Below, in pieces: positions 32,801 to 46,806 of a stretch of DNA of 64,000 nucleotides. A program made the position numbers and the translations under genes. The notes below the pieces were generated by a model. The model was not told the origin of the DNA and did not search any database. It was given only the letters and a program-made list of their open reading frames with translations. The stretch comes from Runella rosea. GTDB lineage: Bacteria > Bacteroidota > Bacteroidia > Cytophagales > Spirosomataceae. The stretch is from NCBI RefSeq assembly GCF_003325355.1, contig NZ_CP030850.1, positions 248,001 to 312,000 on the forward strand, in the 5' to 3' direction. Position 1 is the stretch's first letter, and each line of letters opens with the position of its first letter.

Positions 32801-33103
32801 GGTCGGCAACTTTGGAATGTAACCCCTCCTGTGTTGGCTATAAAAACGCCGGAACCGATATTTTCATTAAATGTATTTCCGAACCCGGTCAGTAAAATTG
32901 TATCAATTCGTATCACAGACGCTAAAGGAGCATCTATGTACCTCAAAATCTTTGATATAAATGGACGGTTGATTATGGAAAAGTCATTGCCTTCAACAGA
33001 GCAAGTGGATGGAATTGATGTTTCGCATCTGCCCACAGGAACGTACATTGTTTGGGTGACCGATGGGGAACGTTGGGCGTCTAAAAAAATAAATAAGTAC
33101 TGA
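29900..33103 (+). CDS. Giant secreted ELWxxDGT-repeat protein with T9SS type A sorting domain
   Basis: 1067 residues. Signal peptide ends FTSQSQQ (about 22). ELWxxDGTxxGT repeats are seen at about residue 57 (EWWVTDGTDTGTKLLKDI), 117 (ELWQTDGTTEGT), 211 (ELWRADGTTTG), 538 (YIWVTDGTAAGT) and 922 (ELWLTEGTPERT); between them are beta-propeller-like strands. The last 75 or so residues are the type A sorting domain (LNVFPNPVSKIVSIRI ... LPTGTYIVWV). It should be exported by the type IX system. Function unknown. The next gene is a paralogue in the same frame direction three bases downstream. Confidence 0.88.
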   Translation: MIKHTIFSLLLLGCWFTSQSQQQLSAIQHRTGSSSNPRAFHRLGDKLLFIADTKEYGAEWWVTDGTDTGTKLLKDIAPGLATTLVRNLNTSLLEVERSIVVANGILYFLTKNALNQSELWQTDGTTEGTIKIFTYEGIIEQFRPTPQKDKFYVIENFALYYLDITAKTKRRVSNPGGSITFVLPDYYLDTNVPPVLDYQLYFTYNELGEYELWRADGTTTGNQRLFAQRIRLGQPLYNVYKGDVYVYNSQNDKVLIKTRGTTATTEVLIPPVNLFPVSLQERFRGMTSRIIDNEFQLIEFPNPSSSVLNQFIVKNTTDGRTFRNVLTKTDPLGSISGVEVSGNTLYYASQTFITAMDLTSGDTTKTYINWTLSGLDVARAKKLSNNSVAYFVKSADFRGQLYLFDGGTRKITPRNVFVSQILEFNNSLVISGGTTAKGNVNLYGADLNGLNFKVKGNLQQVEDNEIPQFMLGTQLYYIGDDAGPGITLNKTDGLTVGQTVKILNNSPTVLLNAAASGLMYSDGQRALFSYVDRSNNRYIWVTDGTAAGTNLLGSITNAQDRPYVYSIDNQLLLWFGSLSFYKVDFSGLRLVRSSTINTVSGNRKTLALDNKVLLFDEKSVTAVDANLSLTTLENRTLFTVDSTLVPLGIGARFFYLRLKTSGKLGVMTGASASEAPRELIEIPSATAMFKVSDGILIHRTEVTSGGKISSFLTFVDANGQRAQEMGPFDFTTVRGVQKTGNTYTLAVVTAPNRLNVALLDVTAKTIRFLKGDAADSQNPKFVTSGSALYVVGSNVWKVLPAKDSLSRLLPAKFYQNGRTFMQAPKMYVSFADPTPETWEIDSLKTQQLGNFFVTTQFTDLIEKKGFQGYTQNSSGRQNGIFLVESPTQTTLLKSLPANQVVPEQAFSGMLIFAAENEAGGNELWLTEGTPERTRQWADLRTGALSSNPKDLRVMGNMVVCSAFSGDQGRQLWNVTPPVLAIKTPEPIFSLNVFPNPVSKIVSIRITDAKGASMYLKIFDINGRLIMEKSLPSTEQVDGIDVSHLPTGTYIVWVTDGERWASKKINKY

Positions 33104-33106
33104 GCC

Positions 33107-36100
33107 ATGAGATACCGCTTTTTTTTGCTCTCTTTTTTATGGTTGGTTGGGGGAGCGTTATGCGCTCAAAATCAATTGACTGCGGTAAAGCATGTGGCCA
33201 ATGCCTCTTCCAATCCGCGCAAATTCGTGCGGCTCGAAAATAAGATATTTTTTATTGCCAATACAAATCAGCATGGAGATGAATGGTGGGTGACCGACGG
33301 AACCGAAACGGGTACTCAGCTCTTAAAAGACGTGGTGCTGGGCGCGGGTTCGGGGCTTTACTATGCCAACGACCTTACCGTAAATCCAACGGTGGTGGCG
33401 GATGGGAAATTTTATTTTACTTCTTTACAAGCTGATGGACAATGTGCCGTGTGGCAAAGTGACGGAACGCCCAACGGCACTGTTCGCCTGGCGCAGTGGG
33501 GTGTGGCCATCACAGAATTGATGCCGCTTAATGGTCAACTTTATATTGCGGATAAGGCCCAAAAGATATGGGTGGTTAATCCCTCCACCTCAGGCAGTAC
33601 CCAACTCGCCGAGCTTGGGTTTGGGGAAAGTGGGGCAGCTTTTTTTCCTCATAACGGCAAAATGTACTTCAATAACAGAAGACGCTCGGCGGTGTTCCAA
33701 ACGGATGGTACGACCACAGGGACGATACGGGTGGGGGATTTTGGTAGTTTTTCCTCAGAACCGAAAATGTTTATCTGGCGTGATTATTTGTATTATTACT
33801 GTAATGCGTTCAATGATGGGCATATAGTTCGGATTAAAAATAACAACCCTGCTACTGCCGAAGTGGTCTACGCCTGGGGATTTGCCAATCCTAATCCGAC
33901 CCTTAGCCTTAGCGGTGTGATAGAAATGCGGGTAAAGGAGGATAAGATTCAGATTGTAGAACACATCAATTTCTATAGCCCCTCGGTGCGGTTGTTAGAA
34001 AGTACCGATGGGTATAACTTTCGTACAGTTGATAAAACCGCTCTGCCAGCTTTAGCAAGCAATTTTTTGTGGATTGATGCCAAATTCTACGGTATTTCAA
34101 AGAAGGGAACGCTAGTCATTCGTGACTTTGAGAAGGCTGGAACTACTGAGGTGGCCGATGCTTGGAAAGTGATTCCTGATGTTGTTACAACGCTCAAAAA
34201 GGTCGGGAATTTTCTTCTAGTGGGTGGAAGCACCGCCGTTGATATTCCGAAATGGTATAATTTAAAGGATGGGAGATTGGCAGAGGTATCTGTTGCGCCG
34301 TCCAATTATGAACTCCTGGCAGATGCAATGGTTCATTCGGGACGTTTGGCCGCCAATGGCGATACAGAGCTGTATAAAACCGATTTGACGACGCTTAAGT
34401 CTAACATTGTCAAAAACATCAAAACCGTCGGAAATGATGATTTTGAAATAATACGGGTAGGTAAAAAAGTTTTTTTTCTGACGCGTGATGAAGCCACCGC
34501 CACTGCATCAACGTCCCTGTGGATAACCGATGGAACCATCGGTGGAACCACCAAAGTAATAGATATACCGAGTCTTTCAGTATCAAAAGTACTTTCAACG
34601 TATCAAGATGGCACGTTTTTATACCTACAAACTCAGGTTGGTTCAAATGAAAGTGCCATTTGGGTAAGTGATGGAACGTCTGAGGGTACGAGGGAATTAA
34701 AACGTTTTGCGGGGCCGCAAACTGAACCTATGAAAGTGGTTATTCGGGAAAAACGTCGAATGTTTTTGCATCCTCATGTTTCGTTTATTTATGATAGCGA
34801 CAGCAAAAATGTCATTGATTTTAAGGTTGGGAGCAATGACAATTGGGGAATTGATTTCAGACAATTATCAAACAAAGTGCTGATTAAGGTGAGTTCTACG
34901 TTGTATTCTGTTGATTTTGAGGGAAAATTAACGGTGCTGGAAGCGGGAGGGGTAATATCTCAGCAAACGTGGGCGGCTACCTCAAACAAAGTATTTTACA
35001 ATCGCTTTATTCGTTTTGATTTCAGCATCGGCGAACCTACCATTGCCCTAATGGTTACCGATGGGACTTTAGAAGGGACCAAAGAGGTAAGCCGTTCATT
35101 GTTCGGTGGGTTTAGTGTACAGGCGCTCAAAACGGACGTTATCGTTACCTATACATCCGCAGCCACTCCAACGCGGATATTCGATGCAGCCATTGTAAAT
35201 GAAAATGCACTCACTTTGAGGAAAGTGATGGCGGGTGGTGCCCGACAGATAGTGGAGATATTCATGGTAGATGATATGGCTGCCTTTCAGTTGGATAATG
35301 GCCGTTTTTTTGCGCTTAACACACGTACGGCCTTTATCACTGAATTACCGACCTTGGCTTATTCTGATAAGGCGATTGTACACGAAGGGGAACTCTATAT
35401 TATAGGGCAGAATTGTAGAAGAATAAACCTTAAAACTTTAGAAACGCGTCTATTGCTGCCACAAGATGATCGATATACTCGGGCGTTTTCATTTTTTCAG
35501 GATGGTCGAGACCTTTATTTGTCTTGGGATGGCAGAATCCCCCAGACATGGTTGATTCGCCCGACAGAGGTGCGTAAACTGGGCGAATTTGTTTTAAACC
35601 AACGGCCCTTAACATTTAACGGGCGTAAGGCATTTATGGCTTCCAAAACTGGATATCCTCCCATCATGCTTTATACCGCCGATTCGTTGGCAACCCAATT
35701 GGCCTACGTACGCGATGTTGAAAATAACGGAGAAGAAGGTTGGACCGTTTTTAATAACTATTTGATTGTAGGTAGCTATGATACGCAGGCAGGCGTAGAG
35801 CCCTGGACCACCGACGGTACTCCCGAAAACAGCCGCGTGCTTGATGACTTACAACCCGCAGCTGAAAGCTCTTTTCCTTCCCGTTATTTAGTTAACGACA
35901 GTAAGCGCCTTATATGCATCGCGGACGCAGGAGCTATGGGAAAACAACTTTGGGCCTTGCGTTCTCCCATTTTGGCGGTAGCGCCTCCGTTAGTTAATTA
36001 TCACACATATCTCTATCCCAATCCTGCCTCAACCCATTTTACGGTCATTTCAGAAGTCCCGTTCGAACCTACTTCTCGGTTGTTAATATACAATTCAATC

Positions 36101-36247
36101 GGCCAAATGATTGGAGAGCACCGCTTGCCCAACAACGCTACCCAAGTGGAAATAGGCCTGAAAAATATTGTTACGGGTATGTATTTTGTAACGATAGACG
36201 CAGGCTTAGGCCAAAGAGTTACCCATAAGCTTGTTGTAATACGATGA
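33107..36247 (+). CDS. Second giant ELWxxDGT-repeat T9SS protein, tandem paralogue
   Basis: 1046 residues, signal peptide ending GALCAQ (about 20). Repeats at about residues 59 (EWWVTDGTETGTQLLKDV), 113 (AVWQSDGTPNGT), 470 (SLWITDGTIGGT), 517 (AIWVSDGTSEGT), 646 (ALMVTDGTLEGT) and 898 (EPWTTDGTPENS). The type A sorting domain starts TYLYPNPASTHFTV and ends THKLVVIR. The N-terminal 90 residues are strikingly like those of the upstream gene (SNPR-F-RL-NKIFFIANT). A GC-rich stem near 36274-36296 closes the unit against the convergent HD gene. Confidence 0.88.
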   Translation: MRYRFFLLSFLWLVGGALCAQNQLTAVKHVANASSNPRKFVRLENKIFFIANTNQHGDEWWVTDGTETGTQLLKDVVLGAGSGLYYANDLTVNPTVVADGKFYFTSLQADGQCAVWQSDGTPNGTVRLAQWGVAITELMPLNGQLYIADKAQKIWVVNPSTSGSTQLAELGFGESGAAFFPHNGKMYFNNRRRSAVFQTDGTTTGTIRVGDFGSFSSEPKMFIWRDYLYYYCNAFNDGHIVRIKNNNPATAEVVYAWGFANPNPTLSLSGVIEMRVKEDKIQIVEHINFYSPSVRLLESTDGYNFRTVDKTALPALASNFLWIDAKFYGISKKGTLVIRDFEKAGTTEVADAWKVIPDVVTTLKKVGNFLLVGGSTAVDIPKWYNLKDGRLAEVSVAPSNYELLADAMVHSGRLAANGDTELYKTDLTTLKSNIVKNIKTVGNDDFEIIRVGKKVFFLTRDEATATASTSLWITDGTIGGTTKVIDIPSLSVSKVLSTYQDGTFLYLQTQVGSNESAIWVSDGTSEGTRELKRFAGPQTEPMKVVIREKRRMFLHPHVSFIYDSDSKNVIDFKVGSNDNWGIDFRQLSNKVLIKVSSTLYSVDFEGKLTVLEAGGVISQQTWAATSNKVFYNRFIRFDFSIGEPTIALMVTDGTLEGTKEVSRSLFGGFSVQALKTDVIVTYTSAATPTRIFDAAIVNENALTLRKVMAGGARQIVEIFMVDDMAAFQLDNGRFFALNTRTAFITELPTLAYSDKAIVHEGELYIIGQNCRRINLKTLETRLLLPQDDRYTRAFSFFQDGRDLYLSWDGRIPQTWLIRPTEVRKLGEFVLNQRPLTFNGRKAFMASKTGYPPIMLYTADSLATQLAYVRDVENNGEEGWTVFNNYLIVGSYDTQAGVEPWTTDGTPENSRVLDDLQPAAESSFPSRYLVNDSKRLICIADAGAMGKQLWALRSPILAVAPPLVNYHTYLYPNPASTHFTVISEVPFEPTSRLLIYNSIGQMIGEHRLPNNATQVEIGLKNIVTGMYFVTIDAGLGQRVTHKLVVIR

Positions 36248-36289: not shown

Positions 36290-36841
36290 TTACCCCAACA
36301 CTTCTTCGCACAATTTTAAGTATTTTTCCAAATCAGGCTTAGGTAGTCCAGTCACTTTGGCGGCTTCGTCCCAGCGGCGCATCTGGATAATGAGCTCAAA
36401 ATAAGGGTTTTGCTCAAAGGCTTTGGCTTCGTCTGCCTGCATAGGCCCACCCTGAAATTCCAGTGTTTTGCGGCTGGCGTCGGATAATCCTGCGAAGTAT
36501 TTGGGGTTTTTGTAGGTCAAATACCGCTTGGCGTTGACGTGATTGGCGACAAGAATGCATACTTTTTCGGGAAAGCCCTGATCGCGCAGCCAATCGGCGG
36601 CCACTTCTTCATGGTCTTTGCGACCGTACATCTCCATGAGTTCTTCTTCCTTTTCGGCGGGCATCAAATGGCCGATGTCGTGCAAAAAAGCCGCGGCCTG
36701 TACTTCTTTGTCAAAGCCGCCTTTGCGGGCTAGCTCCGCTCCTTGGGCGGCGTGTTCGAGTTGGCTTACGTCTTCGCCGTAGTATTGTTCATCGCCTTGT
36801 GATTCAAATAATTGACGAATTTCGGTGATAGATGAAGGCAT
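36290..36841 (-). CDS. PhnZ-like HD-domain mixed-valent diiron oxygenase (phosphonate-type)
   Basis: 183 residues. The pattern matches the phosphonate-operon HD family (TIGR03276, PhnZ/TmpB) rather than ordinary HD phosphohydrolases. Candidate metal ligands are His30, His54-Asp55 (in HDIGH), His77, His101 and Asp158. Candidate substrate residues are Tyr20, Glu23, His58 and Lys105, the same order and spacing, from memory, as in marine PhnZ. PhnZ splits 2-amino-1-hydroxyethylphosphonate to glycine and phosphate. No PhnY-type hydroxylase is in the window. It is last in the SusCD/phosphoesterase run and may have its own promoter. Confidence is high for the fold, moderate for the substrate. Confidence 0.75.
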   Translation of the reverse strand: MPSSITEIRQLFESQGDEQYYGEDVSQLEHAAQGAELARKGGFDKEVQAAAFLHDIGHLMPAEKEEELMEMYGRKDHEEVAADWLRDQGFPEKVCILVANHVNAKRYLTYKNPKYFAGLSDASRKTLEFQGGPMQADEAKAFEQNPYFELIIQMRRWDEAAKVTGLPKPDLEKYLKLCEEVLG

Positions 36842-36862
36842 TTTGGTGTTTATTTAAGGAAG

Positions 36863-36920
36863 CAAATGTAGTTGTTTATGTCAAAAATTGGGAGGCAGTG
36901 GGTGAAATAACACCCACTGC
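36863..36920 (-). promoter_or_regulatory. Hairpin and -7 element between phosphoesterase and HD genes
   Basis: GCAGTGGGTG (36895-36904) and CACCCACTGC (36911-36920) form a 10-bp hairpin right after the phosphoesterase stop. On the minus strand TACATTTG, a perfect -7 box, lies at 36863-36870, 22 nt before the HD start codon. The HD gene may therefore be transcribed separately as well as by read-through. Confidence 0.45.
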
Positions 36921-36924
36921 GGCT

Positions 36925-39639
36925 TTAGTTATTTTGCTGCCGATAATGCTCCCTGCGCTGCTCATCGGGGTCATCCATTTTAGGGCCTGGCTTGGCGGTT
37001 TTCCAGTCGTACGTTTTTTTGTAAATTTCCATTGCTTTGTCTACGTCATAAATGCGTTTGTCAGGAATCAGCATCTGATACGGCGTAAAATCGGGCTTGT
37101 CAGTAAAAAAATCTTGTAGTAAGGAGGCCGTAGCGTCGTATTGGTTGACGTAGGGTACGCCCAATGTATTATAAACTACTTTCAAAATGGACCCAAAATT
37201 GGCGTGGGTGTGCGATACGTGCCCACGCTTTACGTAAGGTCCGGCGAACATCAATACCGAGCGGTGCGCATCGATATGGTCCACGCCCCCCTGCGGGTCG
37301 TCTTCAGTAATCACAACGAGCATATTTTTCCAATACGGCGTATGCGAAAGGAATTGTAAGATTCGACCCAATGAAATGTCATTATCGGCCATAAAAGAAT
37401 GGGGATACGGAAATCCTGCTTCTGGACGGACGCCCGCGCCGTGGTCATTGGGAAGTTGGAGGGCAATCAGTCGGGGCAAATCCACTTTTTTGCCTTTCTG
37501 CGGAGTCAGCCATTTTGCGGTAAATTCTTTCTCAAACTGGTCCATTCGGAGCCAATCAGGAATGTTCATGTCAAAACCAGCATAGTTGCGCGAGGTATGC
37601 TCAAAAACCGCTTTTTGCAAAGGAAACACCACGGGCTGCCGTGCGCCGTATTCAAAATGGTTCCATTCTTCCGCGACGGCAGCAAACTCATTTCCTTCGC
37701 CAAAATTATAAAATGGGATTTTTTTGCGTTCTAGAGCTTCCCATAGTCCGCCAATTTCGTTGTAGTCCTCGGGGTCAATTCCGCCCGTAGCTTTTGGAAA
37801 ACGCCGTCCGGGTGCTTTAGAGAATGCATTGAAGCTAGAAGAGTGATTGGAATTGGCTTCGACCCATTCGTTGGGGATGACGCCCATCATCCAATGGTGG
37901 CCGTGAATGGATGCATCAGAGTCGCAGTAAAAATTATCAGAATACGCAAATTGTTGGGCAATGCGCAGGTGATTGGGCATCACATCTACCTGGCGCAAAG
38001 TGTCCGTTTTTGTCGTTACCGTCACATTTGTTCCATATCGAGCGAGCGTAGGGTCACCTTTTGAAAGCTGTCCCAAGACTTCGTCGTATGTGCGGTTCTC
38101 TTTGGTAATGTACACAATGTATTTGATGGGACTTGTCCGCGAGCCGGGCAGGGGAGGGAGGGGATTTTTGCCGTCGTCGGTGACTGACACGGTCTCAAAA
38201 GTATTGTCGATGGCTTGTTGTGTCCATTTTTTCAATTCGGTGGGTGTCGGGAGCGTAACTTTTTGGAATGTTCCGAGCTGAATGTCGCCGATGTAGGTAC
38301 CTCGGTCTGGTTTTACAAAACCGCTACCGCCGTTTTGGCCCGCGCCCAATCCCCGGGCAGAGACCACATACAGATTTTTCTCATCGGGCGATAATTTCAC
38401 TTTGGTCGGTCCCCAACCCGTGGGAATCAATCCCTTTACCCTACGGGTGGTCAAATCAACCACTGCTACGGCATTGAAGCCCAAAAGGGCCACGTATAGC
38501 GTTTTTTCATCTTGGGTGAGCGCCATCCCAAATGGCATCAATCCTCGGTACTTGTCAATGCTGGGGTGCACTTTCAGCGCGATATGTCCCGCGATTTTGC
38601 GCGTTTGGCAATTGATAATCGAAATGTTGTCATTTGTGGCGTTGGAAACGTAGGCAAAGCGTTTTCCGACCGCAACGGAGTTGGGACTTGCACCGCCCAC
38701 GATTTCGGCTTCCTCAATCATTTCCCCGATCTGATGTCCAGTTTTAAATTTACCCTTGACTTTGTTGGTGGCTAAGTCTACCATCCAAACGCTCATGGCT
38801 TCGGGCACGAGTGGGCTACCCAAGCCAGGGATTTTTCGTCCTTCGACTTCTACTCCTTCGATAGACTCTTTGGTGACGGTTGCGTAAGGGGGAAATTTTA
38901 GCATCATGGTGTCTTTGTTTTTGGGCGTTACGCCTGGCACCAAAGGGTACGCATATAATCCAACATTGGCTACAAACGCGTATTTTTTGTCGGGACTTAA
39001 CGAAAGCCCAAACGGCTGCCGCCCTACGGGAATGGAAGCCGTGATTTTTTTTGTGGCCAAATCAATCCGCACCATTCTAAAATGCGCCCGGTCAAGAACA
39101 AGCAGCTCATTTTTAGCAGAATTTAGGATTAAATCTGAAGTAAAACTTTCTTCAAAATTTTGATTATCAATGGGTTGGTTGAGTGAAATGTCGTCAATTT
39201 TTTCCTTTTTTTCGGTGTCAAAAATGATAATATTCCCCTTGTCGCCGCCGCTCAGATATACCAGTTTGGAGTCAGTCGCAAAGGCAGCGCCCAAAAATGT
39301 GGCACCTTTGAAAGGGTCCGCAAACGTTTTGGCGTAATCGGGAATGCGAAGGGCCTGACGTGGATTTTCGGCATCGATGAGTGAAATAGCGCCGCTGTGC
39401 AGTGCCACGACCCGCCTCCCATCAGGACTGACAGCTAGTCCGAAAGGGTCGTTGGTGATGCGGAGGGTAGTGCCGACGGGTGTGACGCGCCGCCCGCTGG
39501 GCAGTACCGAGTAGCCGCCTGTGGTGTCAATTTTGCAATACTCGGCTCGGCTCGGTACTTGAAGGGTTTTGATTGTACGGAGTTGAGCGGTAAGCAAAAG
39601 GGGGGAAAAGAGAAGAGAAAAGGGGAAAAAGAAACGCAT
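36925..39639 (-). CDS. Secreted beta-propeller / phospholipase C-type phosphoesterase fusion
   Basis: 904 residues from ATG 39639, which gives a clear signal peptide (MRFFFPFSLLFSPLLLTAQ); the 23-residue upstream extension is not signal-like. The N-terminal half (about 25-490) is a YncE/YVTN propeller with repeated SPDGR/SPDKK strands. The C-terminal half begins YIVYITKENRTYDEVLG (about 510), the ENR-[ST]-[FY]-D motif of the PF04185 phosphoesterases (phospholipase C/AcpA). It continues with DNFYCDSDASIHGHHW and ends near VVITEDDPQGGVDHIDAHR. It should hydrolyse phosphate or phosphonate esters in the periplasm or at the surface. It is placed after susCD. Confidence 0.85.
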   Translation of the reverse strand: MRFFFPFSLLFSPLLLTAQLRTIKTLQVPSRAEYCKIDTTGGYSVLPSGRRVTPVGTTLRITNDPFGLAVSPDGRRVVALHSGAISLIDAENPRQALRIPDYAKTFADPFKGATFLGAAFATDSKLVYLSGGDKGNIIIFDTEKKEKIDDISLNQPIDNQNFEESFTSDLILNSAKNELLVLDRAHFRMVRIDLATKKITASIPVGRQPFGLSLSPDKKYAFVANVGLYAYPLVPGVTPKNKDTMMLKFPPYATVTKESIEGVEVEGRKIPGLGSPLVPEAMSVWMVDLATNKVKGKFKTGHQIGEMIEEAEIVGGASPNSVAVGKRFAYVSNATNDNISIINCQTRKIAGHIALKVHPSIDKYRGLMPFGMALTQDEKTLYVALLGFNAVAVVDLTTRRVKGLIPTGWGPTKVKLSPDEKNLYVVSARGLGAGQNGGSGFVKPDRGTYIGDIQLGTFQKVTLPTPTELKKWTQQAIDNTFETVSVTDDGKNPLPPLPGSRTSPIKYIVYITKENRTYDEVLGQLSKGDPTLARYGTNVTVTTKTDTLRQVDVMPNHLRIAQQFAYSDNFYCDSDASIHGHHWMMGVIPNEWVEANSNHSSSFNAFSKAPGRRFPKATGGIDPEDYNEIGGLWEALERKKIPFYNFGEGNEFAAVAEEWNHFEYGARQPVVFPLQKAVFEHTSRNYAGFDMNIPDWLRMDQFEKEFTAKWLTPQKGKKVDLPRLIALQLPNDHGAGVRPEAGFPYPHSFMADNDISLGRILQFLSHTPYWKNMLVVITEDDPQGGVDHIDAHRSVLMFAGPYVKRGHVSHTHANFGSILKVVYNTLGVPYVNQYDATASLLQDFFTDKPDFTPYQMLIPDKRIYDVDKAMEIYKKTYDWKTAKPGPKMDDPDEQRREHYRQQNN

Positions 39640-39661
39640 GTTTGGGTAGCAGTTTATAAAC

Positions 39662-39702
39662 AAAAAAAATAAAGCAGGAGATAGACGATCTCCCACTTTA
39701 TT
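39662..39702 (-). terminator. Intra-operon terminator between susD and the phosphoesterase gene
   Basis: On the minus strand, arms 39688-39702 and 39668-39682 form a 15-bp stem with two G-U pairs and a 5-nt loop, followed by eight T (39662-39669). No promoter is evident in the remaining 22 nt before the next ATG, so it probably works as an attenuating, leaky terminator that lowers enzyme expression relative to SusCD. Confidence 0.7.
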
Positions 39703-39726
39703 GTGCATTCTTAACCTATTAAAAAA

Positions 39727-41292
39727 TTACTTCAAAAGCCAAAGCTCATCATTGATGCTCTCAGTAGCTTTGCCGAATTGAGCTTGTACCGCAGTTTTAT
39801 AGTTGGTTTCGTTGTAGATACGCTCTGAGTTGGGATATAACCAACGGCGCGGAATCACGCCAGAGTTTCCTGTGCCTGGCCCGCCCTTGGCAAAATTGGT
39901 TGGGAAGCCAGTACGACGCCAGTTATAGAATGCTTCCATTCCTGAGTTCATAAAAAAGCCGAGGTATTTTTGATTGTTGATTTGTTCCAATCCTTTTGCG
40001 TTGTTGCCAGCGTATTTTACCGAAGGCTGGGCGTAAAAGTCGGTGAAATTAAATTTGATGGTATAAGACGCCAATGAAGCATTAGCTCCGTTGCGGGTTT
40101 CCAATACGACACTGTTTTCACCGTTTTTAATCTCAAAGAATCCTTGAGAAGCCTGAATTCCCTTTGTGTACCAATCTTCGGCATTTGCCGTAACCCAGCC
40201 CCGGTTGGCGGCTTCGGCAATGTTGAAACACATTTCGATGTAGCCGATTTGGATGGTTGCTTCGGGAGAATAGTTTTTGTAATAACGATTACGGTTGATG
40301 TACGAATATTGTCCAGCCAGTGCTTTTGTAGACATATCATCCAAGCTTTCTGCGGGATTTGCACCCACAAAAGCGGCGAAGTCCGTTTGGGTGAGTCCTT
40401 TTTTCAACTGGGCTTCTGCGGGCTCGGCAATGTAGAACAGACGCGGGTCTTGGGTCGCTTTAAGGAGGTCTATGTTGGTCGTTGACATCTGCTGGCGTGT
40501 GGCATCAAACCCGAAGTTGTCGGGGTTGATGGGGTATTTGTTGTACGTAGCATTGTACTTGTACGCCATATTGTCGGCCATTCCCGTCATGATTGGGTAT
40601 TTAGCGGGATTGTTGATTACTTCGGCAAATTTACCTTTGATGTTTAGCTCTGCGTCGCTTTCTTTTTTGCTCAACGAAACCAGCACGCGCAGTTTGAAGG
40701 TATTGACTACTTTTTGCCAAGCCCGAAGATTGTTGCTCAAGTAAATATCACCCTGCAATGAAATATCTCCTGCGGCAATCAACTTGGTCAAGTCATCGTT
40801 TGATTCATCGAGCCATTTGAGCGCTTGCACGTAGATTTCCTTTTGCGTATTGTATTTAGGGCTGGTATTTTCGGTGCCTTTCAGTGCTTCATTCATGGGC
40901 AGGTCGCCGAGGCGTTGCGTCATCCAAACGAAGAAGTAAGCCTTAAAAAATTTACCCAGTGCCGCGTACGGATTTAAGTCTTTTCCCGTCGATTTTTTGG
41001 CTTCTTCCTCCATTTTTACCACGTTTTTAAGCGCGTCAAAATAAGTGCCCGACGTAGTCCAGTCGTATTCGTTGTTGCCGTAATAGTTATAATTGATGGT
41101 ATAAAACTGATTCCAACGGGTGTCTTTGCCCCAAGGACGTTCGGTCATACTATTAAGGATACCATTGAATACCAAGTTAGCAGGTGAGCTTGCAGGAACG
41201 TTGGGGTTGGTTTCCAACTCTTGGAAGGTTTGGCAGCTACTCATGGTCAGAGCGGCAATGGCAAAAATTAAATATATTTTATTGATTTTCAT
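39727..41292 (-). CDS. susD: SusD/RagB-family outer-membrane nutrient-binding lipoprotein
   Basis: 521 residues. Lipoprotein signal ends MSSC (Cys about 20). It is of the SusD-like_2 type: ELETNPNVPASSPANLVFNGIL, YGNNEYDWTTSGTYFDALKNV, helical TPR-like core, and C-terminal NSGMEAFYNWRRTGFP with IPRRWLYPNSERIYN. SusD lids the SusC channel and binds the imported ligand at the cell surface. It lies 59 nt after susC. The symbol denotes family only; this subgroup often handles ligands other than starch. Confidence 0.9.
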   Translation of the reverse strand: MKINKIYLIFAIAALTMSSCQTFQELETNPNVPASSPANLVFNGILNSMTERPWGKDTRWNQFYTINYNYYGNNEYDWTTSGTYFDALKNVVKMEEEAKKSTGKDLNPYAALGKFFKAYFFVWMTQRLGDLPMNEALKGTENTSPKYNTQKEIYVQALKWLDESNDDLTKLIAAGDISLQGDIYLSNNLRAWQKVVNTFKLRVLVSLSKKESDAELNIKGKFAEVINNPAKYPIMTGMADNMAYKYNATYNKYPINPDNFGFDATRQQMSTTNIDLLKATQDPRLFYIAEPAEAQLKKGLTQTDFAAFVGANPAESLDDMSTKALAGQYSYINRNRYYKNYSPEATIQIGYIEMCFNIAEAANRGWVTANAEDWYTKGIQASQGFFEIKNGENSVVLETRNGANASLASYTIKFNFTDFYAQPSVKYAGNNAKGLEQINNQKYLGFFMNSGMEAFYNWRRTGFPTNFAKGGPGTGNSGVIPRRWLYPNSERIYNETNYKTAVQAQFGKATESINDELWLLK

Positions 41293-41351
41293 CGTCTTAA
41301 AGTTTTGTACGAAAGATTGGTTTTCATTTACAGTTTGCCAACAACAATCTC

Positions 41352-44300
41352 TTAGAAAGTGAAATTGATATTGATACCGTAACGACGCATGGTAGGTGTC
41401 TGTAACGACGACCCACGGTCAGTGTAGTTAACAAATTGCTCTACATCCAAATCTTTAGAATGAGCAAAATACAACAAGTTACGTCCAACCAGCGAAATCG
41501 TAGCCTGCTTGATATTCTTACCTAATAAACCCGCTGGGAGTGAATAACCTACCTGTAATTCACGTAATTTCACAAACGTACGGTTTATCATGTTGCCCTC
41601 ATTGGAGTTGTAATATCGGCTAATCCAATCTTGCAAAAACGTAGCATTCGCAGAAGACATCGGGGTAAAATTCAATTCACCGTAGTTTGTTACCAAACCA
41701 TCTGGATCGTATTTAATCGTACCACCCGTTAAAACAACTCCTTCTCCTACCCAAGTTTTCTGTCCTTGCGTATCGGCCAAACGAGCAATACCCATGGCAC
41801 CCTCGACCGTAGCTTGGTGGCGACCACCGCGGAACGTTTGTTTTTGGATGTAATTCTCAATAACACCACCTACGCGTCCGTCAAATTGGAAGCTAAAGTT
41901 AAAGTTCTTGTAGCTAAATTTGTTTTGGAAACCAAACGTCCAGTCAGGGTTAGTGTAGCCTAAGAATTGATTGACGGGATTGTAAATCGGACGTCCGCTG
42001 GCATCGTTGACGATTTGACCATCTTGGGTACGAACAAAGGCGCGTCCATAATAAGCATCCAAACGGTCGCCAATTTTATAAAACTGATTCAAGCGAGTTT
42101 GTGAACCGTAAATCTCCTTGAGGGTTTCTTGCCAAGTGGACCAGTTGGCCAAGATGTCCCAGTTAAGACCGGTGCCGCTTTTGAGAACATTACCACTTAC
42201 CGCAATCTCTAATCCTTTACGTTGGGTTTTGATACCGTTGGTGGTGAGTGCCCCATAACCCGTTGATTCTGGGAGCGTTAATCCAAAAATTTGGGGGCCA
42301 TCTAAGTAGTTAAAATAAGTTACATCTAAGCCCAAACGGTTGTTCATAAACTTCATTTCCAATCCTCCCTCGTAGTTGGTACGCGTTGAGGGCTGAATGT
42401 TAGGGTCAACAAGGCGAGTTGAATAATAAGCCGCGGCTTCGTTGTTGTAAGGACGCGATATGCTGTAAGCAACGGTTGTACCATAACTTGGCCCGTCGTA
42501 AGATGAAGTATAGTTGGCACCGTAAGGGACTGGCGTATTTGGCGGAACCCCAATCGTAGCTTGCGTAAAGGCCTCTTTTACCCGAGCAAACGAAGCCCGA
42601 AGTTTGAGGAATGTAATTGCATCTGGCAACTTTACGTAGTCCGAAAGGACCGTTGTTAGACCCACAGAAGGATAAAAACCTACGTTACGACCTGACGGCA
42701 ACGTAGAGGTTTTATCCCAACGTCCTGTTACTGAAAGGTTAGCGTATTTGCTCAAAGAAACGTCTGCAGAGTAATAGCCACTCAATACTTTCATGTAAGC
42801 CGCAAAGTTATAAGCTTGTACGGGGTTGCGTGAGTTGGAGAAACTATATACGCCTGGTACGTTGAGATAGTCGGTAGAAGCAAAGTTGGAGTTGTAGCGG
42901 AACAAACGCATACTTGCACCGACGGAAGCTCTCACGGTAATGTTTTTAGCCACCTCTTTGTCAAAATTAACCAAGGCGTCAGTATTGTTTTCCCAAAGGC
43001 TACGACGGTCTTCACGGTAGTCACCGCGGGCTTCTTCACGTCCATAAGAAGTAGCAGAGAAAGGCATTTTCTCGGTACGAAGAATGTCATAAGTCGTTAC
43101 TTGCGTACGAATTTGTGCATTTAGGTAATCCGTAATTTGGTATTTACCAAGCGCATAGGCGTAGATGTCATTTTTGTAATGACCACGCAACCACTCTTTA
43201 ACCACAAACCAAGGATTGTTGTAGCGTTGGTACTCAGCGTATATTTGCTGGACCCCTTCTTTGCCAGGTTGCCACAATTGTTTCATATCATCTACGTTCC
43301 AGTCTGCGCCACCCCAAATGATTGAGTTGTAAATGAGGGAGTTAGGGCCATAGTCTACGTCAGGTATATTAGGCGTATATTGACGGCTGTAGTTGATGGT
43401 ACTTTCAAAACGCAATTTTTTGGAGAAACTATACCCAAACGAGGTATTGAGGTTAGTAATGTTCAGTTGCGTATTAGGAATGATACCCCGTTGGTATTGG
43501 TGCGACAACGACACCCGAAGGTCTGCTTTGTCGTTACTGGCTGATACCGATACGTTGTTATTAGATAAAATCCCCGTACGAACAAAACGTTGTAAATTGT
43601 TGGCACCACGCGGCAACCAAGGAGTAGGAATCCGCTTACCTGTTGCAGGGTCAATTGGGCTATCGTACTGAGTTAGCAAACGACCATCCAATGGCGGTCC
43701 CCAAATGTCGTAGTCGCCATCGTTTACACCACCTCCACGACCGTCCACAAACGCATATTTGCCGTGGTCGCCTGGACCGTATTGGTCTTGTACTCTAGGC
43801 ATAGAAATAAATCCATTGTCAAACATTGTAGAAGAGTTGACATCAACCGCAAAGCCTCTTTTATCTTTCGACCCTTTCTTAGTTGTAATCATAATCACCC
43901 CATTCTGAGCCCGAAAACCGTACAAAGCCGTTCCCGAAGGCCCTTTTAATACGTCCATTGACTCTATATCGTCGGGGCTGATATTCCACGTATCGGAGTT
44001 GATCGGAATACCATCTACTACATATAGTGGGCGACCACCACGCAACGACACCTGTGGAGCACGCAAAAGTTCGGCGCTTGCCCCTACGTTTAAGCCAGCC
44101 ACTTTCCCCACGAGGGAGTTGATGGGGTTGGGCTCGCGGGCTTTGATAAGGTCAGAGCCTTTTACACTTTGCGTTGCAAAAGCCAGCGTTTTCTTATCTT
44201 TTTGAATCCCCAATGCTGTCACAACAACTTCTTGTAGTTGTTTGAGGTCCTGTGCCATTTTTAGGTCAAGGGTGCTACGATTGCCCACCGATATTTCTTG

Positions 44301-44567
44301 GGCATTGTAGCCTACAAAGGAGAATACTAACGTAGAATTGGGAGCTACACTAAGGCGATATCTGCCTTCACCGTCTGTGTTCGTTCCGCGATTTGTGCCT
44401 TTTACAACCACACTCACCCCGGGGAGCGGTGCGTTGTTTTCGGCGTCTGTAATTCTGCCCTGCACCGTTATGTCTTGTGCAAGGAGACTGGAGGCTACAC
44501 CGAGTGTCAATATAAAGAATGACACCCAAAAGGATTTCCCTAGATTTTGGGGTAAAAAGTACCGCAT
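41352..44567 (-). CDS. susC: SusC/RagA-family TonB-linked outer-membrane transporter
   Basis: 1071 residues. Signal peptide ends SSLLAQD (about 31). CarboxypepD_reg-like domain (VQGRITDAENNAPLPGVSVVVKG-type start, FSFVGYNAQE), TonB-box region (LQEVVVTALGIQKDKK), plug (INSLVGKVAGLNV, SLRGGRPLYVVDGIPI, DIESMDVLKGPSGTALYG, NGVIMITTKKG) and a 22-strand barrel ending MRRYGININFTF. It first in a minus-strand run: susC, susD, phosphoesterase, HD oxygenase. No SusR/HTCS or sigma/anti-sigma gene adjoins it. Confidence 0.93.
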   Translation of the reverse strand: MRYFLPQNLGKSFWVSFFILTLGVASSLLAQDITVQGRITDAENNAPLPGVSVVVKGTNRGTNTDGEGRYRLSVAPNSTLVFSFVGYNAQEISVGNRSTLDLKMAQDLKQLQEVVVTALGIQKDKKTLAFATQSVKGSDLIKAREPNPINSLVGKVAGLNVGASAELLRAPQVSLRGGRPLYVVDGIPINSDTWNISPDDIESMDVLKGPSGTALYGFRAQNGVIMITTKKGSKDKRGFAVDVNSSTMFDNGFISMPRVQDQYGPGDHGKYAFVDGRGGGVNDGDYDIWGPPLDGRLLTQYDSPIDPATGKRIPTPWLPRGANNLQRFVRTGILSNNNVSVSASNDKADLRVSLSHQYQRGIIPNTQLNITNLNTSFGYSFSKKLRFESTINYSRQYTPNIPDVDYGPNSLIYNSIIWGGADWNVDDMKQLWQPGKEGVQQIYAEYQRYNNPWFVVKEWLRGHYKNDIYAYALGKYQITDYLNAQIRTQVTTYDILRTEKMPFSATSYGREEARGDYREDRRSLWENNTDALVNFDKEVAKNITVRASVGASMRLFRYNSNFASTDYLNVPGVYSFSNSRNPVQAYNFAAYMKVLSGYYSADVSLSKYANLSVTGRWDKTSTLPSGRNVGFYPSVGLTTVLSDYVKLPDAITFLKLRASFARVKEAFTQATIGVPPNTPVPYGANYTSSYDGPSYGTTVAYSISRPYNNEAAAYYSTRLVDPNIQPSTRTNYEGGLEMKFMNNRLGLDVTYFNYLDGPQIFGLTLPESTGYGALTTNGIKTQRKGLEIAVSGNVLKSGTGLNWDILANWSTWQETLKEIYGSQTRLNQFYKIGDRLDAYYGRAFVRTQDGQIVNDASGRPIYNPVNQFLGYTNPDWTFGFQNKFSYKNFNFSFQFDGRVGGVIENYIQKQTFRGGRHQATVEGAMGIARLADTQGQKTWVGEGVVLTGGTIKYDPDGLVTNYGELNFTPMSSANATFLQDWISRYYNSNEGNMINRTFVKLRELQVGYSLPAGLLGKNIKQATISLVGRNLLYFAHSKDLDVEQFVNYTDRGSSLQTPTMRRYGININFTF

Positions 44568-44903
44568 AATGTTAATTTGTTAAGTGGAAAATGAAGGAGT
44601 GTAGGACTTACTAAACCCGTTGCAAAGTAAGTTTAGTGAAATTAATAAATAGTTAACTAATAGTAAAGTAATTATTAATATATTTTTTTAATCATAACAT
44701 TCGGTTGAAGTTCCATATTCCAGTATTATTTATACACAATGGGCGAAATTTGCGGTTTAATTCGTATATGTTATCTAATTATTACCAAATTATTATGGAA
44801 TGAATATTAAATAAATTGTATACTTAAACTAAACTTTAATTCGAAATTTATTAACTTTGTTTACGAACTATTACTTTTGTATTATTCAAATGCATATAAA
44901 TAA
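44568..44903. promoter_or_regulatory. Divergent control region between susC and the phosphonatase-like gene
   Basis: 336 nt, very AT-rich, no ORF. Rightward: a perfect TACTTTTG at 44872-44879 (start near 44883, 21-nt leader); the -33 half is weak. Leftward: a near-consensus TTACTTTG on the minus strand at about 44622-44629. An inverted repeat ACTAAAC (44610-44616)/GTTTAGT (44631-44637) spans that leftward box and could be an operator. The shared region would allow joint control of both arms of the locus. Confidence 0.5.
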
Positions 44904-45674
44904 ATGGAGCAACAACAGATAAAATTGGTCGTTTTGGACATGGCCGGAACGACCGTAGCCGATCAGCATGAGGTGGAGGCCTGCTTTGCAAAAGCAGCGC
45001 GTATGTCGGGACTCGAAGCTTCTGACGAAGCAATTTTGGCGGCACAGGGATTATCGAAGCGTTATGTATTTCAATTGTTTTGGAGAGCCCAGCTCGGAGA
45101 ATCTCATCCGGATGTAGAAACACAGGTTGATAAGTCGTACGCTATTTTTAAAGAGGTATTGGAAGCACACTATCAGACTCAGCCCGTTTTTCCGACCGAC
45201 GGCTGCCTGAAGCTGTTTAGCTACCTTAAACAAAATAACATTAAGATTGCTTTGACGACGGGCTTTTATCGGGTTGTGACCGATATTATATTGGGTCGTT
45301 TGGGCTGGCTCGAAGGCTTGGATGAAAATCGTATTGGCAATGACGACAGCATAATTCAAGCATCTATTGCCAGTGATGAAGTAGAGCATGGCCGCCCTGC
45401 GCCGTTGATGATTCAAAAAGCAATGCGCCTCTTGGGTGTCACTGATCCTAAACACGTGATTAATGCGGGCGATACGCCTTCTGATTTGCAATCAGGTAAT
45501 GCAGCAGGCGTTTTGTTGAACTTAGGCGTAACGAACGGCACCCACACCGTCGAGCAGCTCATAGGCCATCCACACGATGCGCTGATTGGCTCGATTGACG
45601 AAATTATTAATCTAATAGAAGGAATTAAACAGGGCCGCCCAAGCGGTAAAACAGCGGATGCGTACTCATTTTGA
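44904..45674 (+). CDS. Phosphonatase-like (PhnX-like) HAD hydrolase, TIGR03351 type
   Basis: 256 residues. The features that set phosphonatases apart from other HAD enzymes are present: DxAGT nucleophile motif (Asp12, DMAGTT), a cap-domain lysine at residue 52 (QGLSKRYV) matching the Schiff-base Lys53 of PhnX, TTG motif II (118-120), Arg164 (HGRPAP) in place of the usual Lys, and GDTPSD (189-194). PhnX splits the C-P bond of phosphonoacetaldehyde. This clade is thought to act on the same or a closely related 2-oxoethylphosphonate. It overlaps the FAD oxidoreductase gene by 17 nt, so the two are coupled. Confidence 0.82.
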   Translation: MEQQQIKLVVLDMAGTTVADQHEVEACFAKAARMSGLEASDEAILAAQGLSKRYVFQLFWRAQLGESHPDVETQVDKSYAIFKEVLEAHYQTQPVFPTDGCLKLFSYLKQNNIKIALTTGFYRVVTDIILGRLGWLEGLDENRIGNDDSIIQASIASDEVEHGRPAPLMIQKAMRLLGVTDPKHVINAGDTPSDLQSGNAAGVLLNLGVTNGTHTVEQLIGHPHDALIGSIDEIINLIEGIKQGRPSGKTADAYSF

Positions 45675-46806
45675 CCTAATCGTGGTCGGTGGCGGTATCA
45701 TGGGGACTTTCCATGCTTACCATGCCGCTCGACAAAATAAATCTGTATTACTCTTAGAAAAGGATAATTTTCCGGTAGGCGCAACCGTTCGAAATTTTGG
45801 CCAAGCGGTTCCGTCTGGGTTGGCTGGGAGATGGTTCGAGTACGGCCAACGTAGCTTGGAATTATACCAAGAACTTCAATCAAAAACCGATTTAACCGTT
45901 CGCAAAAACGGCTCGGTCTACATCGCTTCTGACGCCGATGAGTGGCAGTTGGCCAATGAATTGTACGATTATTATCAGAAAATCGGCTACCCCTGCGAGC
46001 TGTTGACTCGGGAGAGTTGCCTAGAGAAATATCCCTACTTACAAAAGGAATATCCCGTAGGCGCTGTTTTCTTTCCTGGTGAATTGACCGTTGACTCCCC
46101 GAAACTGATGAAACAGTTTTTGGCGTATTGTTCAGAACAAGAAGGTATTACGTACATCAACAATGCAACCGTGGTGGAGTGCCAATCCTCAAACGGAAAA
46201 GCTACCGTGCGGCTTACCAACCAAAAGACGTTTGAAGCAAGCAAAGTGCTCATTTGTAATGGTCACGAGTTTCGGATGCTTTATCCCGAACTGTTTGCCA
46301 AAAGTGGCTTGATTGTCAGCAAATTGCAAATGCTTCAAACCATTGCTTTTCCTGAGTTGAACATGAAAGGGAATATTCTGACGGGATTGACGATTCGGCG
46401 TTATGAGTCTTTTCAGCAACTTTCATCATACGCCAACCTCACCACGCCCGCCCATTATGATGAACTTAAAAAGTGGGGTATTCACGTGCTGTTCAAGCAG
46501 GCTTTGGATGGCTCGGTTGTGGTGGGTGACTCGCACGAATACGCAGGGGCGCAAAACGTGGATGATTTGGGCTATCATATCAACGATTACATCAATCAAT
46601 TGATTATTGACGAAGCCAAGCGCATTGTAAGTTTCCCCGTCGAAAAAATGCAAATGAGCTGGGCAGGGTTTTATAGTCAAACGTCCGACGAAATTTACGA
46701 ATACGATGTCGACGAACATATTCGTATCATTACGGGTATTGGCGGAAAAGGAATGACTTCCAGCGGTGGATACGCGGAGGAAAGCATTGCTCGCCTGTTT
46801 TCATAA
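45658..46806 (+). CDS. FAD-dependent oxidoreductase, TIGR03364 (phosphonate-associated) family
   Basis: 382 residues of the DAO fold. The dinucleotide motif is FDLIVVGGGIMGTFHAYHAA, then RNFGQAVPSGL and a C-terminal ITGIGGKGMTSSGGYAEE that closes the FAD site. Members of this clade are found next to TIGR03351 phosphonatase-like enzymes and have been proposed to deaminate an aminophosphonate oxidatively, giving the aldehyde for that hydrolase. Starts 17 nt inside the preceding gene. A general amino-acid oxidase activity cannot be excluded from sequence. Confidence 0.8.
   Translation: MRTHFDLIVVGGGIMGTFHAYHAARQNKSVLLLEKDNFPVGATVRNFGQAVPSGLAGRWFEYGQRSLELYQELQSKTDLTVRKNGSVYIASDADEWQLANELYDYYQKIGYPCELLTRESCLEKYPYLQKEYPVGAVFFPGELTVDSPKLMKQFLAYCSEQEGITYINNATVVECQSSNGKATVRLTNQKTFEASKVLICNGHEFRMLYPELFAKSGLIVSKLQMLQTIAFPELNMKGNILTGLTIRRYESFQQLSSYANLTTPAHYDELKKWGIHVLFKQALDGSVVVGDSHEYAGAQNVDDLGYHINDYINQLIIDEAKRIVSFPVEKMQMSWAGFYSQTSDEIYEYDVDEHIRIITGIGGKGMTSSGGYAEESIARLFS

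Follow-up and report, generated by a model that had tools for sequence, protein, structure and literature searches.

How Bacteroidota take up organic phosphorus is still poorly known; according to passages of PMC8812569, they apparently lack ABC transporters for small molecules. Whether SusCD outer-membrane systems could supply them with phosphonates is a question raised by a stretch of 64,000 nucleotides (the window) from the 7.16-Mb genome of Runella rosea (contig NZ_CP030850.1, positions 248,001 to 312,000). On two divergent arms it carries genes for SusC, SusD, a propeller-phosphoesterase fusion, and an HD-domain oxygenase on one strand, and genes for a HAD hydrolase and a flavin adenine dinucleotide (FAD)-dependent oxidase on the other. 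An initial annotation had read these six open reading frames (ORFs) as a phosphonate utilization locus, and all six are adjacent and intact where that annotation had placed them. Taken as a whole, and leaving each step to be graded separately, the locus is to judge from its sequence probably a dedicated SusCD-fed aminophosphonate utilization locus. Both the phosphonate reading and its link to SusCD are supported by co-localization of the genes in relatives and by the clade to which the window SusD belongs. The features of the locus are as follows.

36290–36841, minus strand: HD-domain diiron oxygenase of the PhnZ/TmpB kind (TIGR03276), 183 aa
36925–39639, minus strand: beta-propeller fused to a PF04185 phosphoesterase, predicted to be secreted, 904 aa from the likely start
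39727–41292, minus strand: SusD-like surface lipoprotein (PF12771)
41352–44567, minus strand: SusC/RagA TonB-dependent outer-membrane channel (TIGR04056)
44568–44903: divergent susC-HAD promoter region, 336 bp start to start, alignable in L150 and L151
44610–44637: inverted repeat ACTAAAC-N14-GTTTAGT, candidate operator
44852–44859, plus strand: candidate Bacteroidetes-type -7 element TAACTTTG preceding the HAD gene and shared with L150 and L151
44904–45674, plus strand: HAD hydrolase of the phosphonatase (PhnX-like) group
45658–46806, plus strand: FAD-dependent amine oxidase, TIGR03364 (PbfD family)

Co-localization of the Genes across Bacteroidota

When 177 genomes drawn from the order were searched, the HD gene was found in 28 and the FAD gene in 38. 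All but one of the HD genomes (27 of 28; exception, G136) also had the FAD gene, where about 6 would be expected. The two genes lay no more than 12 kb apart in 19 of the 27 genomes having both; in another six (G010, G017, G082, G110, G141, and G155) short or edge-cut contigs make the distance undecidable. The G010 locus is probably whole, because both of its contigs end in the susC-HAD intergenic stretch. Among 392 Bacteroidota genomes that were at least 90% complete, 18 (less than 5%) had the HD gene and 35 (about 9%) the FAD gene; 17 of the 18 had both (exception, G298), at a distance of no more than 12 kb in 15 of 17, with G010 again undecidable. The two draws overlap, six HD genomes being in both, and G168 and L150 appear to be one strain. 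Though conserved, the gene set is uncommon.

Scanning named genomes with the HD alignment yielded at least 80 loci. Among the matches listed, 48 are from Bacteroidota by title, including Runella, Larkinella, Hymenobacter, Algoriphagus, Mucilaginibacter, Chitinophaga, and Lewinella. SusC and SusD were present together in 36 of these 48, the FAD or HAD gene in 40, a DUF5690 gene in 33, and a phosphoesterase of one of the four modeled kinds in 36. For the 30 of the 48 listed loci with a full 20 kb of sequence, SusC and SusD lay in the HD stretch in 27, with the FAD or HAD gene in 27, DUF5690 in 21, and a phosphoesterase in 24. No SusCD was seen at the 32 non-Bacteroidota loci among the matches listed, as expected outside the phylum. 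By way of a yardstick, six genomes carry from 3 to about 17 SusD-like_2 genes each, so that a random 20 kb would hold one with a 2%–5% chance; these genomes had been picked for having SusD at the locus, and their gene density alone was used. A chance neighborhood of the six genes was considered and dropped on the co-localization seen in the order, phylum, and named-genome sets: the six-gene grouping is not chance.

Putative Carbon-Phosphorus Cleavage Enzymes

The window FAD protein scores 344.7 bits against TIGR03364 (curated cut-off, 285.1) and is the only one of 11 matches in its genome to exceed the cut-off. Passages of PMC10590968 name PbfD1 as a member of TIGR03364 and report that PbfD enzymes oxidize N-methyl-2-aminoethylphosphonate (N-methyl-AEP), and PbfD2 also AEP itself, to phosphonoacetaldehyde; pbfD genes other than pbfD1 most commonly accompany phnX alone. 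We propose that the window FAD protein is likewise an AEP and N-methyl-AEP oxidase yielding phosphonoacetaldehyde. The position of its gene beside the HAD gene, with no PhnW, matches the pbfD-with-phnX arrangement described in the same passages. The initial annotation had the FAD and HAD enzymes act on aminophosphonates, and this much stands; hydroxy-AEP, which it had also offered them, is better assigned to the HD oxygenase alone, because the FAD family oxidizes N-methyl-AEP and AEP (PMC10590968).

At an E-value of 1e-8 the window HAD protein has six PDB matches, every one a phosphonoacetaldehyde hydrolase (best, 2iof, E = 1.8e-11). Its D12-x-A14-G15-T16 motif, K52, R164, D190, and D194 are invariant among 20 aligned sequences, and K52 falls where phosphonatases have their cap-domain Schiff-base lysine. 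We propose that this protein is a phosphonoacetaldehyde hydrolase. C-P lyase or PhnW as the working enzyme was rejected: among 27 locus-bearing genomes PhnJ was found in none, and PhnW scored above its cut-off in one (G465).

FAD-HAD-DUF5690 loci without HD or SusD also occur. In L241, L244, L245, and L248 they share a cluster of ~950-aa proteins, a TonB-dependent receptor in L244 (the sole member Pfam-scanned). In L137, L138, and L139 they come with a PF01663-type enzyme and a class-III aminotransferase, the latter Pfam-scanned in L138, and the genomes concerned hold SusCD of clade I (see below) elsewhere (L230–L232).

The HD protein is the sole TIGR03276 match of the window genome and clears the curated cut-off (218.9 versus 214.6 bits). 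It matches PhnZ (PDB 4mlm, E = 6.6e-42) over residues 4–182 of 183 and TmpB (PDB 6npa, E = 5.9e-33) over residues 8–176, and lies under the equivalog cut-offs for TmpB and Gimesia PhnZ1 (152.3 and 144.7 bits versus 300). Tyrosine and glutamate of a YxxE loop (Y20/E23) are invariant among 22 aligned sequences, together with H30, H54, D55, H58, H77, H101, K105, R155, and D158, so that the H...HD...H...H...D metal ligands are retained throughout; a YxxE loop and metal-ligand features are described for PhnZ and TmpB in passages of PMC8177086. No signal peptide is apparent by eye, and the closest named HD gene among the matches listed is that of Runella sp. CRIBMP (99%). We propose that this enzyme converts (R)-1-hydroxy-2-aminoethylphosphonate (hydroxy-AEP) to glycine and phosphate. 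The C-P cleavage steps are predicted activities, supported by family membership and active-site residues. As a separate observation, the N-terminal stretch of the HD protein at L104:14019-14633 (G100) resembles by eye the start of the metallophosphoesterase that precedes HD in L105, as if a metallophosphoesterase gene had been deleted into HD.

SusCD Pair and Its Distribution

The window SusC scores 490.7 bits against TIGR04056 (cut-off, 368.25) and has plug and CarboxypepD_reg domains. The adjoining gene encodes a SusD protein with 191 bits against PF12771 (cut-off, 27) and, by eye, a lipobox-like MSSC near the N terminus. We placed 109 SusD proteins in a FastTree tree, which has long branches and local support values only. 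Clade I (local support, 97), to which the window SusD belongs, has 60 members, of which 48 come from phosphonate loci and 12 were classed as off-locus; one of the latter, L175, is a mislabeled locus copy, since tblastn matched HD there. For ordinary SusD-like_2 paralogs 55 places were drawn, of which 30 had loci; 3 of those were locus copies and 27 were entered, and none of the 27 falls in the window clade. A second group of 20 proteins (support, 90) consists exclusively of locus copies, and 2 of the 70 locus-labeled rows (L179_12 and L242_2) lie outside both groups.

Conservation of SusCD and the phosphoesterase without the other three genes had been named by the initial annotation as the finding that would speak against it. 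For the most part this is not what the genomes hold: 22 of 24 order genomes with a SusD orthologue (at least 46% identity) carry FAD or HD. There are contrary cases. Clade-I proteins L233 (G139) and L234 (G169) come from genomes with neither HD nor FAD, and L230–L232 (G073, G159, and G176) and L237 (G054) are distant from the FAD or HD genes present in the same genomes. The remaining off-locus members are second copies in G101 and G151 (L235 and L236) or lie on contigs of 3–8 kb, where linkage is not readable (L238–L240, from G136, G141, and G017).

We also compared the FAD loci from the two draws that span 16 kb or more, 57 in all. Of the 27 with HD, 24 have SusD, versus 4 of the 30 without (Fisher's exact p = 6e-9, a value inflated by kinship); four of the 30 HD-less loci (L124, L127, L132, and L260) are from genomes that hold HD elsewhere. 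If this association holds, it would link the SusCD ligand to hydroxy-AEP and not to AEP generally. Most often, SusCD systems take up glycans or peptides. An ordinary glycan pair was rejected here, as no glycoside hydrolase occurs among the scanned neighbor representatives (one per family; 8 of 26 extra clusters), two of which (195 and 438 aa) had no Pfam match.

Separately, in L234, L235, and L236 clade-I SusCD, in stretches with no HD or FAD, is followed by a secreted PF13350 phosphatase (identified by eye in L235 and by Pfam in the other two), possibly a sister system for phosphate esters.

Phosphoesterases of Several Kinds

The window phosphoesterase scores 32 bits against PF04185 (cut-off, 23), a family that includes bacterial phospholipases C, and is joined to a YncE-like propeller with propeller matches in the PDB. 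Although the longest ORF reaches 39708, a start at 39639 is preferred, because the L150 orthologue begins there with a signal-like stretch; the resulting N terminus, MRFFFPFSLLFSPLLLTAQ, is hydrophobic by eye. E537, N538, D598, S600, H602, D775, E802, D803, D804, H811, and H815 (numbered on the long ORF) are invariant among 11 aligned sequences. The AlphaFold model is poor (mean predicted local distance difference test score [pLDDT] 57.6, with much of the catalytic part below 50). Orthologues (at least 55% identity) were found in 13 genomes and lie by HD or FAD in 10.

Phosphoesterase type varies from locus to locus. Counting neighbors up to 8 kb from the core genes, the order set has the PF04185 enzyme at 11 loci, two PF01663 enzymes at 8 and 6, a metallophosphoesterase at 4, and a PHP phosphatase at 4, each recurrent neighbor family being named by Pfam from one representative. 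A GDPD lipoprotein stands next to SusD, between SusD and HAD, in L108 (by Pfam) and in its congener L109 (by eye). The L258 locus has a PhoD-like enzyme. The R. rosea genome has a second propeller-phosphoesterase of 44% identity (G000:C1:5498067-5500748, L149). The same stretch holds a third, of lower identity (27%), and a protein of 704 aa resembling, by eye, an outer-membrane receptor; BLAST of these 20 kb with the six window proteins gave no HD, HAD, FAD, or SusCD match.

Candidate Inner-Membrane Carrier and Proposed Pathway

Two further genes recur in the order set at no more than 8 kb from the core genes: DUF5690, at 19 loci, and an XRE-cupin regulator, at 16. A DUF5690 model built from 24 sequences (pLDDT, 91.6) has the major facilitator superfamily (MFS) fold. 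Ranks 1–7 by E-value among its PDB matches are all G6PT1/SLC37A4, the glucose-6-phosphate antiporter (best E = 8.5e-9; template modeling [TM] score, 0.62); the modeled fold leans, but only leans, to the organophosphate antiporters. In an alignment with E. coli GlpT that is itself weak, the invariant R39-K40 of DUF5690 (numbered on the L173 protein) falls on GlpT R45-K46, of which R45 is a phosphate ligand. Another MFS protein, forming one cluster, lies near the core genes in L115, L116, L176, and L201 (Pfam MFS_1 for L201). The best named match of the XRE-cupin regulator is PuuR, a regulator that responds to amines, and it is weak (39.6 bits versus a cut-off of 211).

From gene content, N-terminal sequences, and fold we infer import, ester cleavage, and inner-membrane transport as follows. 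SusC and SusD would capture and import an ester-linked aminophosphonate, either a headgroup diester or a phosphonate-decorated oligomer. The secreted PF04185 enzyme would then cut the P-O ester and free the aminophosphonate, a role that PF01663, metallophosphoesterase, GDPD, or PhoD enzymes may fill in some relatives. An inner-membrane carrier, for which DUF5690 is the candidate, would bring the product in. In the cytoplasm, the FAD oxidase would convert AEP or N-methyl-AEP to phosphonoacetaldehyde, to be split by the HAD enzyme into acetaldehyde and phosphate; in a parallel arm, the HD oxygenase would split (R)-1-hydroxy-AEP to glycine and phosphate. Together the two arms would cover plain, N-methylated, and hydroxylated aminophosphonates.

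A wider picture can be drawn, to which we give somewhat less than an even chance. Two dedicated SusCD lineages would import aminophosphonate polymers or headgroups, with interchangeable phosphoesterases; DUF5690, akin to the organophosphate antiporters, would be a new carrier for phosphonates; HD would mark loci with a hydroxy-AEP-bearing ligand; and such systems would be scattered through Bacteroidota.

Weighing the Evidence

Several observations weigh against the reading of the locus as an aminophosphonate system, or against its wider form. Among the family calls of the initial annotation, those for HD, FAD, SusC, SusD, and PF04185 clear their cut-offs, and that for HAD does not: its best NCBIfam match, TIGR03351, scores 169.8 bits under a cut-off of 218.9, and the PhnX model TIGR01422 gives 88.2 bits where 220 is needed. 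Because of the TIGR03351 score, the HAD protein is phosphonatase-like in a loose sense only. HD and FAD are clearly apart in G004 (one contig, 1.8 Mb) and G054 (contig ends too far), and G272 is split into an HD-SusCD part and an FAD-HAD-DUF5690 part. Three of the 13 phosphoesterase orthologues (in G029, G114, and G086) lie apart from HD and FAD. The HD-SusD association keeps its direction but is non-significant after phylogenetic pairing: on the FAD tree SusD goes with HD in 4.0 of 6 independent pairs and opposite in 0.1 (median p = 0.125). It follows from the uncorrected counts themselves that FAD and HAD alone do not need SusCD. The window copy lacks both the XRE-cupin regulator and DUF5690, the Runella DUF5690 gene lying elsewhere in the genome, unlinked; the locus-bearing genomes G087, G101, G024, and G040 have no DUF5690 match. 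The DUF5690 fold has 294 PDB matches at E ≤ 0.001, with sialin, the choline carrier FLVCR1, and sugar carriers close behind G6PT1, and some other carriers match at TM 0.64–0.65, above the 0.62 of G6PT1. Profile comparison with GlpT is weak as well (hhalign probability 1.2%, E = 0.045).

Could the genes instead form a general organic-phosphorus island, in which ordinary phosphate esters are the substrates of SusCD and the phosphoesterase, with the phosphonate enzymes adjacent merely through joint induction? SusCD loci with phosphatases and diesterases that are induced by low inorganic phosphate (Pi) are known in Flavobacterium from passages of PMC8115612. Clade-I SusD adjoins a secreted PF13350 phosphatase away from phosphonate genes in L234–L236, and in G029 and G114 the phosphoesterase and DUF5690 adjoin each other away from HD and FAD. 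Yet an island of this sort would leave unexplained a window SusD clade with 0 of 27 ordinary paralogs and a SusD that tracks HD (by counts uncorrected for kinship) and not FAD loci generally. The regulator of relatives, with its weak match to PuuR, would also fit a switch that responds to substrate better than a Pho switch. We regard such an island as unlikely. That the HAD, FAD, and HD enzymes act on non-phosphonate substrates is very improbable indeed: the HAD protein does fall under the PhnX and PhnX-like cut-offs, and phosphonate activity is here a prediction, but the HAD Schiff-base lysine and DxAGT motif and the HD YxxE loop are invariant in the aligned sets, and many Bacteroidota have three phosphonate-type families grouped together.

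If the aminophosphonate reading is kept, its ligand may be a phosphonolipid headgroup or a phosphonoglycan, both of which are possible. The initial annotation had leaned to the former, a choice that is not established, as a phosphonoglycan fits as well. Speaking for a lipid are the phospholipases C within PF04185, the GDPD-family lipoprotein of L108 and L109, and hydroxy-AEP reported in a sphingophosphonolipid of Bacteriovorax stolpii (in a passage of PMC4642753). No lipase, ceramidase, or fatty-acid gene was seen among the scanned neighbor representatives, and phosphonate-decorated glycans would account for the same genes; glycans are also, with peptides, the usual cargo of SusCD. We doubt that the ligand is specifically a phosphonolipid headgroup.

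Relation to Known Systems

By gene content, with SusCD co-localized with a phosphoesterase gene, the window locus would count as a phosphate utilization system (PUS). It resembles the PusCD loci of Flavobacterium (PMC8115612), in which, in the passages concerned, a SusCD pair stands beside secreted or periplasmic phosphoesterases. The authors state there that Pi-responsive SusCD loci co-localize with phosphonate-degrading enzymes, so the view of the initial annotation that no SusCD-coupled phosphonate locus had been described was too strong. The two differ in that Flavobacterium PusD1 and PusD2 (the proteins compared) belong to PF07980/PF14322 and the window SusD to PF12771, and in that low-Pi induction is shown for PusCD. 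The passages on PusCD name no set of HD, FAD, HAD, and DUF5690. With the PbfD plus PhnX route, as given in passages of PMC10590968, the locus shares a TIGR03364 oxidase adjoining a phosphonatase-type HAD gene without PhnW; unlike that route, the pair stands beside SusCD, a secreted phosphoesterase, and HD, and the HAD protein is PhnX-like, under the PhnX cut-off.

The full diiron and YxxE signature of the HD protein recalls the PhnY/PhnZ and TmpA/TmpB oxidative pathways. Unlike these, the six window genes include no hydroxylase (PhnY-type hydroxylases elsewhere were not searched for), and free hydroxy-AEP would be the direct HD substrate. E. coli GlpQ-GlpT, whose genes adjoin, offers another parallel, in that an ester is cut outside the inner membrane and the product imported by an MFS antiporter; the DUF5690 similarity is at fold level, and glp has neither SusCD nor C-P chemistry. 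PbfD/PhnX and PhnZ chemistry is already known. In the open-access literature, among the matches listed, we found no description of the combined locus, its Bacteroidota spread, or DUF5690 in a carrier role, and nothing on DUF5690 or on Runella with phosphonate.

If true, the proposal would carry the SusCD paradigm, so far one of glycans and phosphate esters, over to phosphonates; it would also point to a role for DUF5690 and provide marker genes for phosphonate turnover. One could then test directly whether the hydroxy- and N-methyl-aminophosphonates of glycans or lipids actually serve as food. Similar gene kits in scattered Bacteroidota hint at an overlooked phosphorus source.

Intergenic Region and Neighboring Genes

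On the plus strand the HAD and FAD genes overlap by 17 bp. In the divergent region, the inverted repeat at 44610–44637 is a candidate operator. With spacers of 8–20 allowed, its ACTAAAC/GTTTAGT arms were matched 5 times in stretches that total 3.12 Mb and partly overlap. Every match lies in the divergent region of a Runella copy, and 4 genomes are represented, L097 and L150 being apparently a single one. The arms are intact in R. zeae (L151), where the spacer has diverged. A full -33/-7 promoter pair was not found in the divergent region upstream of the HAD gene; TAACTTTG there is a candidate for the -7 element.

Beyond the locus, two large proteins are encoded at 29900–33103 and 33107–36247, the first with ELWxxDGT repeats and the second with a Por secretion tail. 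A TonB-dependent receptor lies at 50038–52143 (best NCBIfam match PqqU, 419 bits versus a cut-off of 1200). The gene at 54478–56847 encodes a molybdenum hydroxylase large subunit that scores nearly alike against aerobic CO dehydrogenase (695 bits) and glyceraldehyde dehydrogenase (693), both under cut-off.

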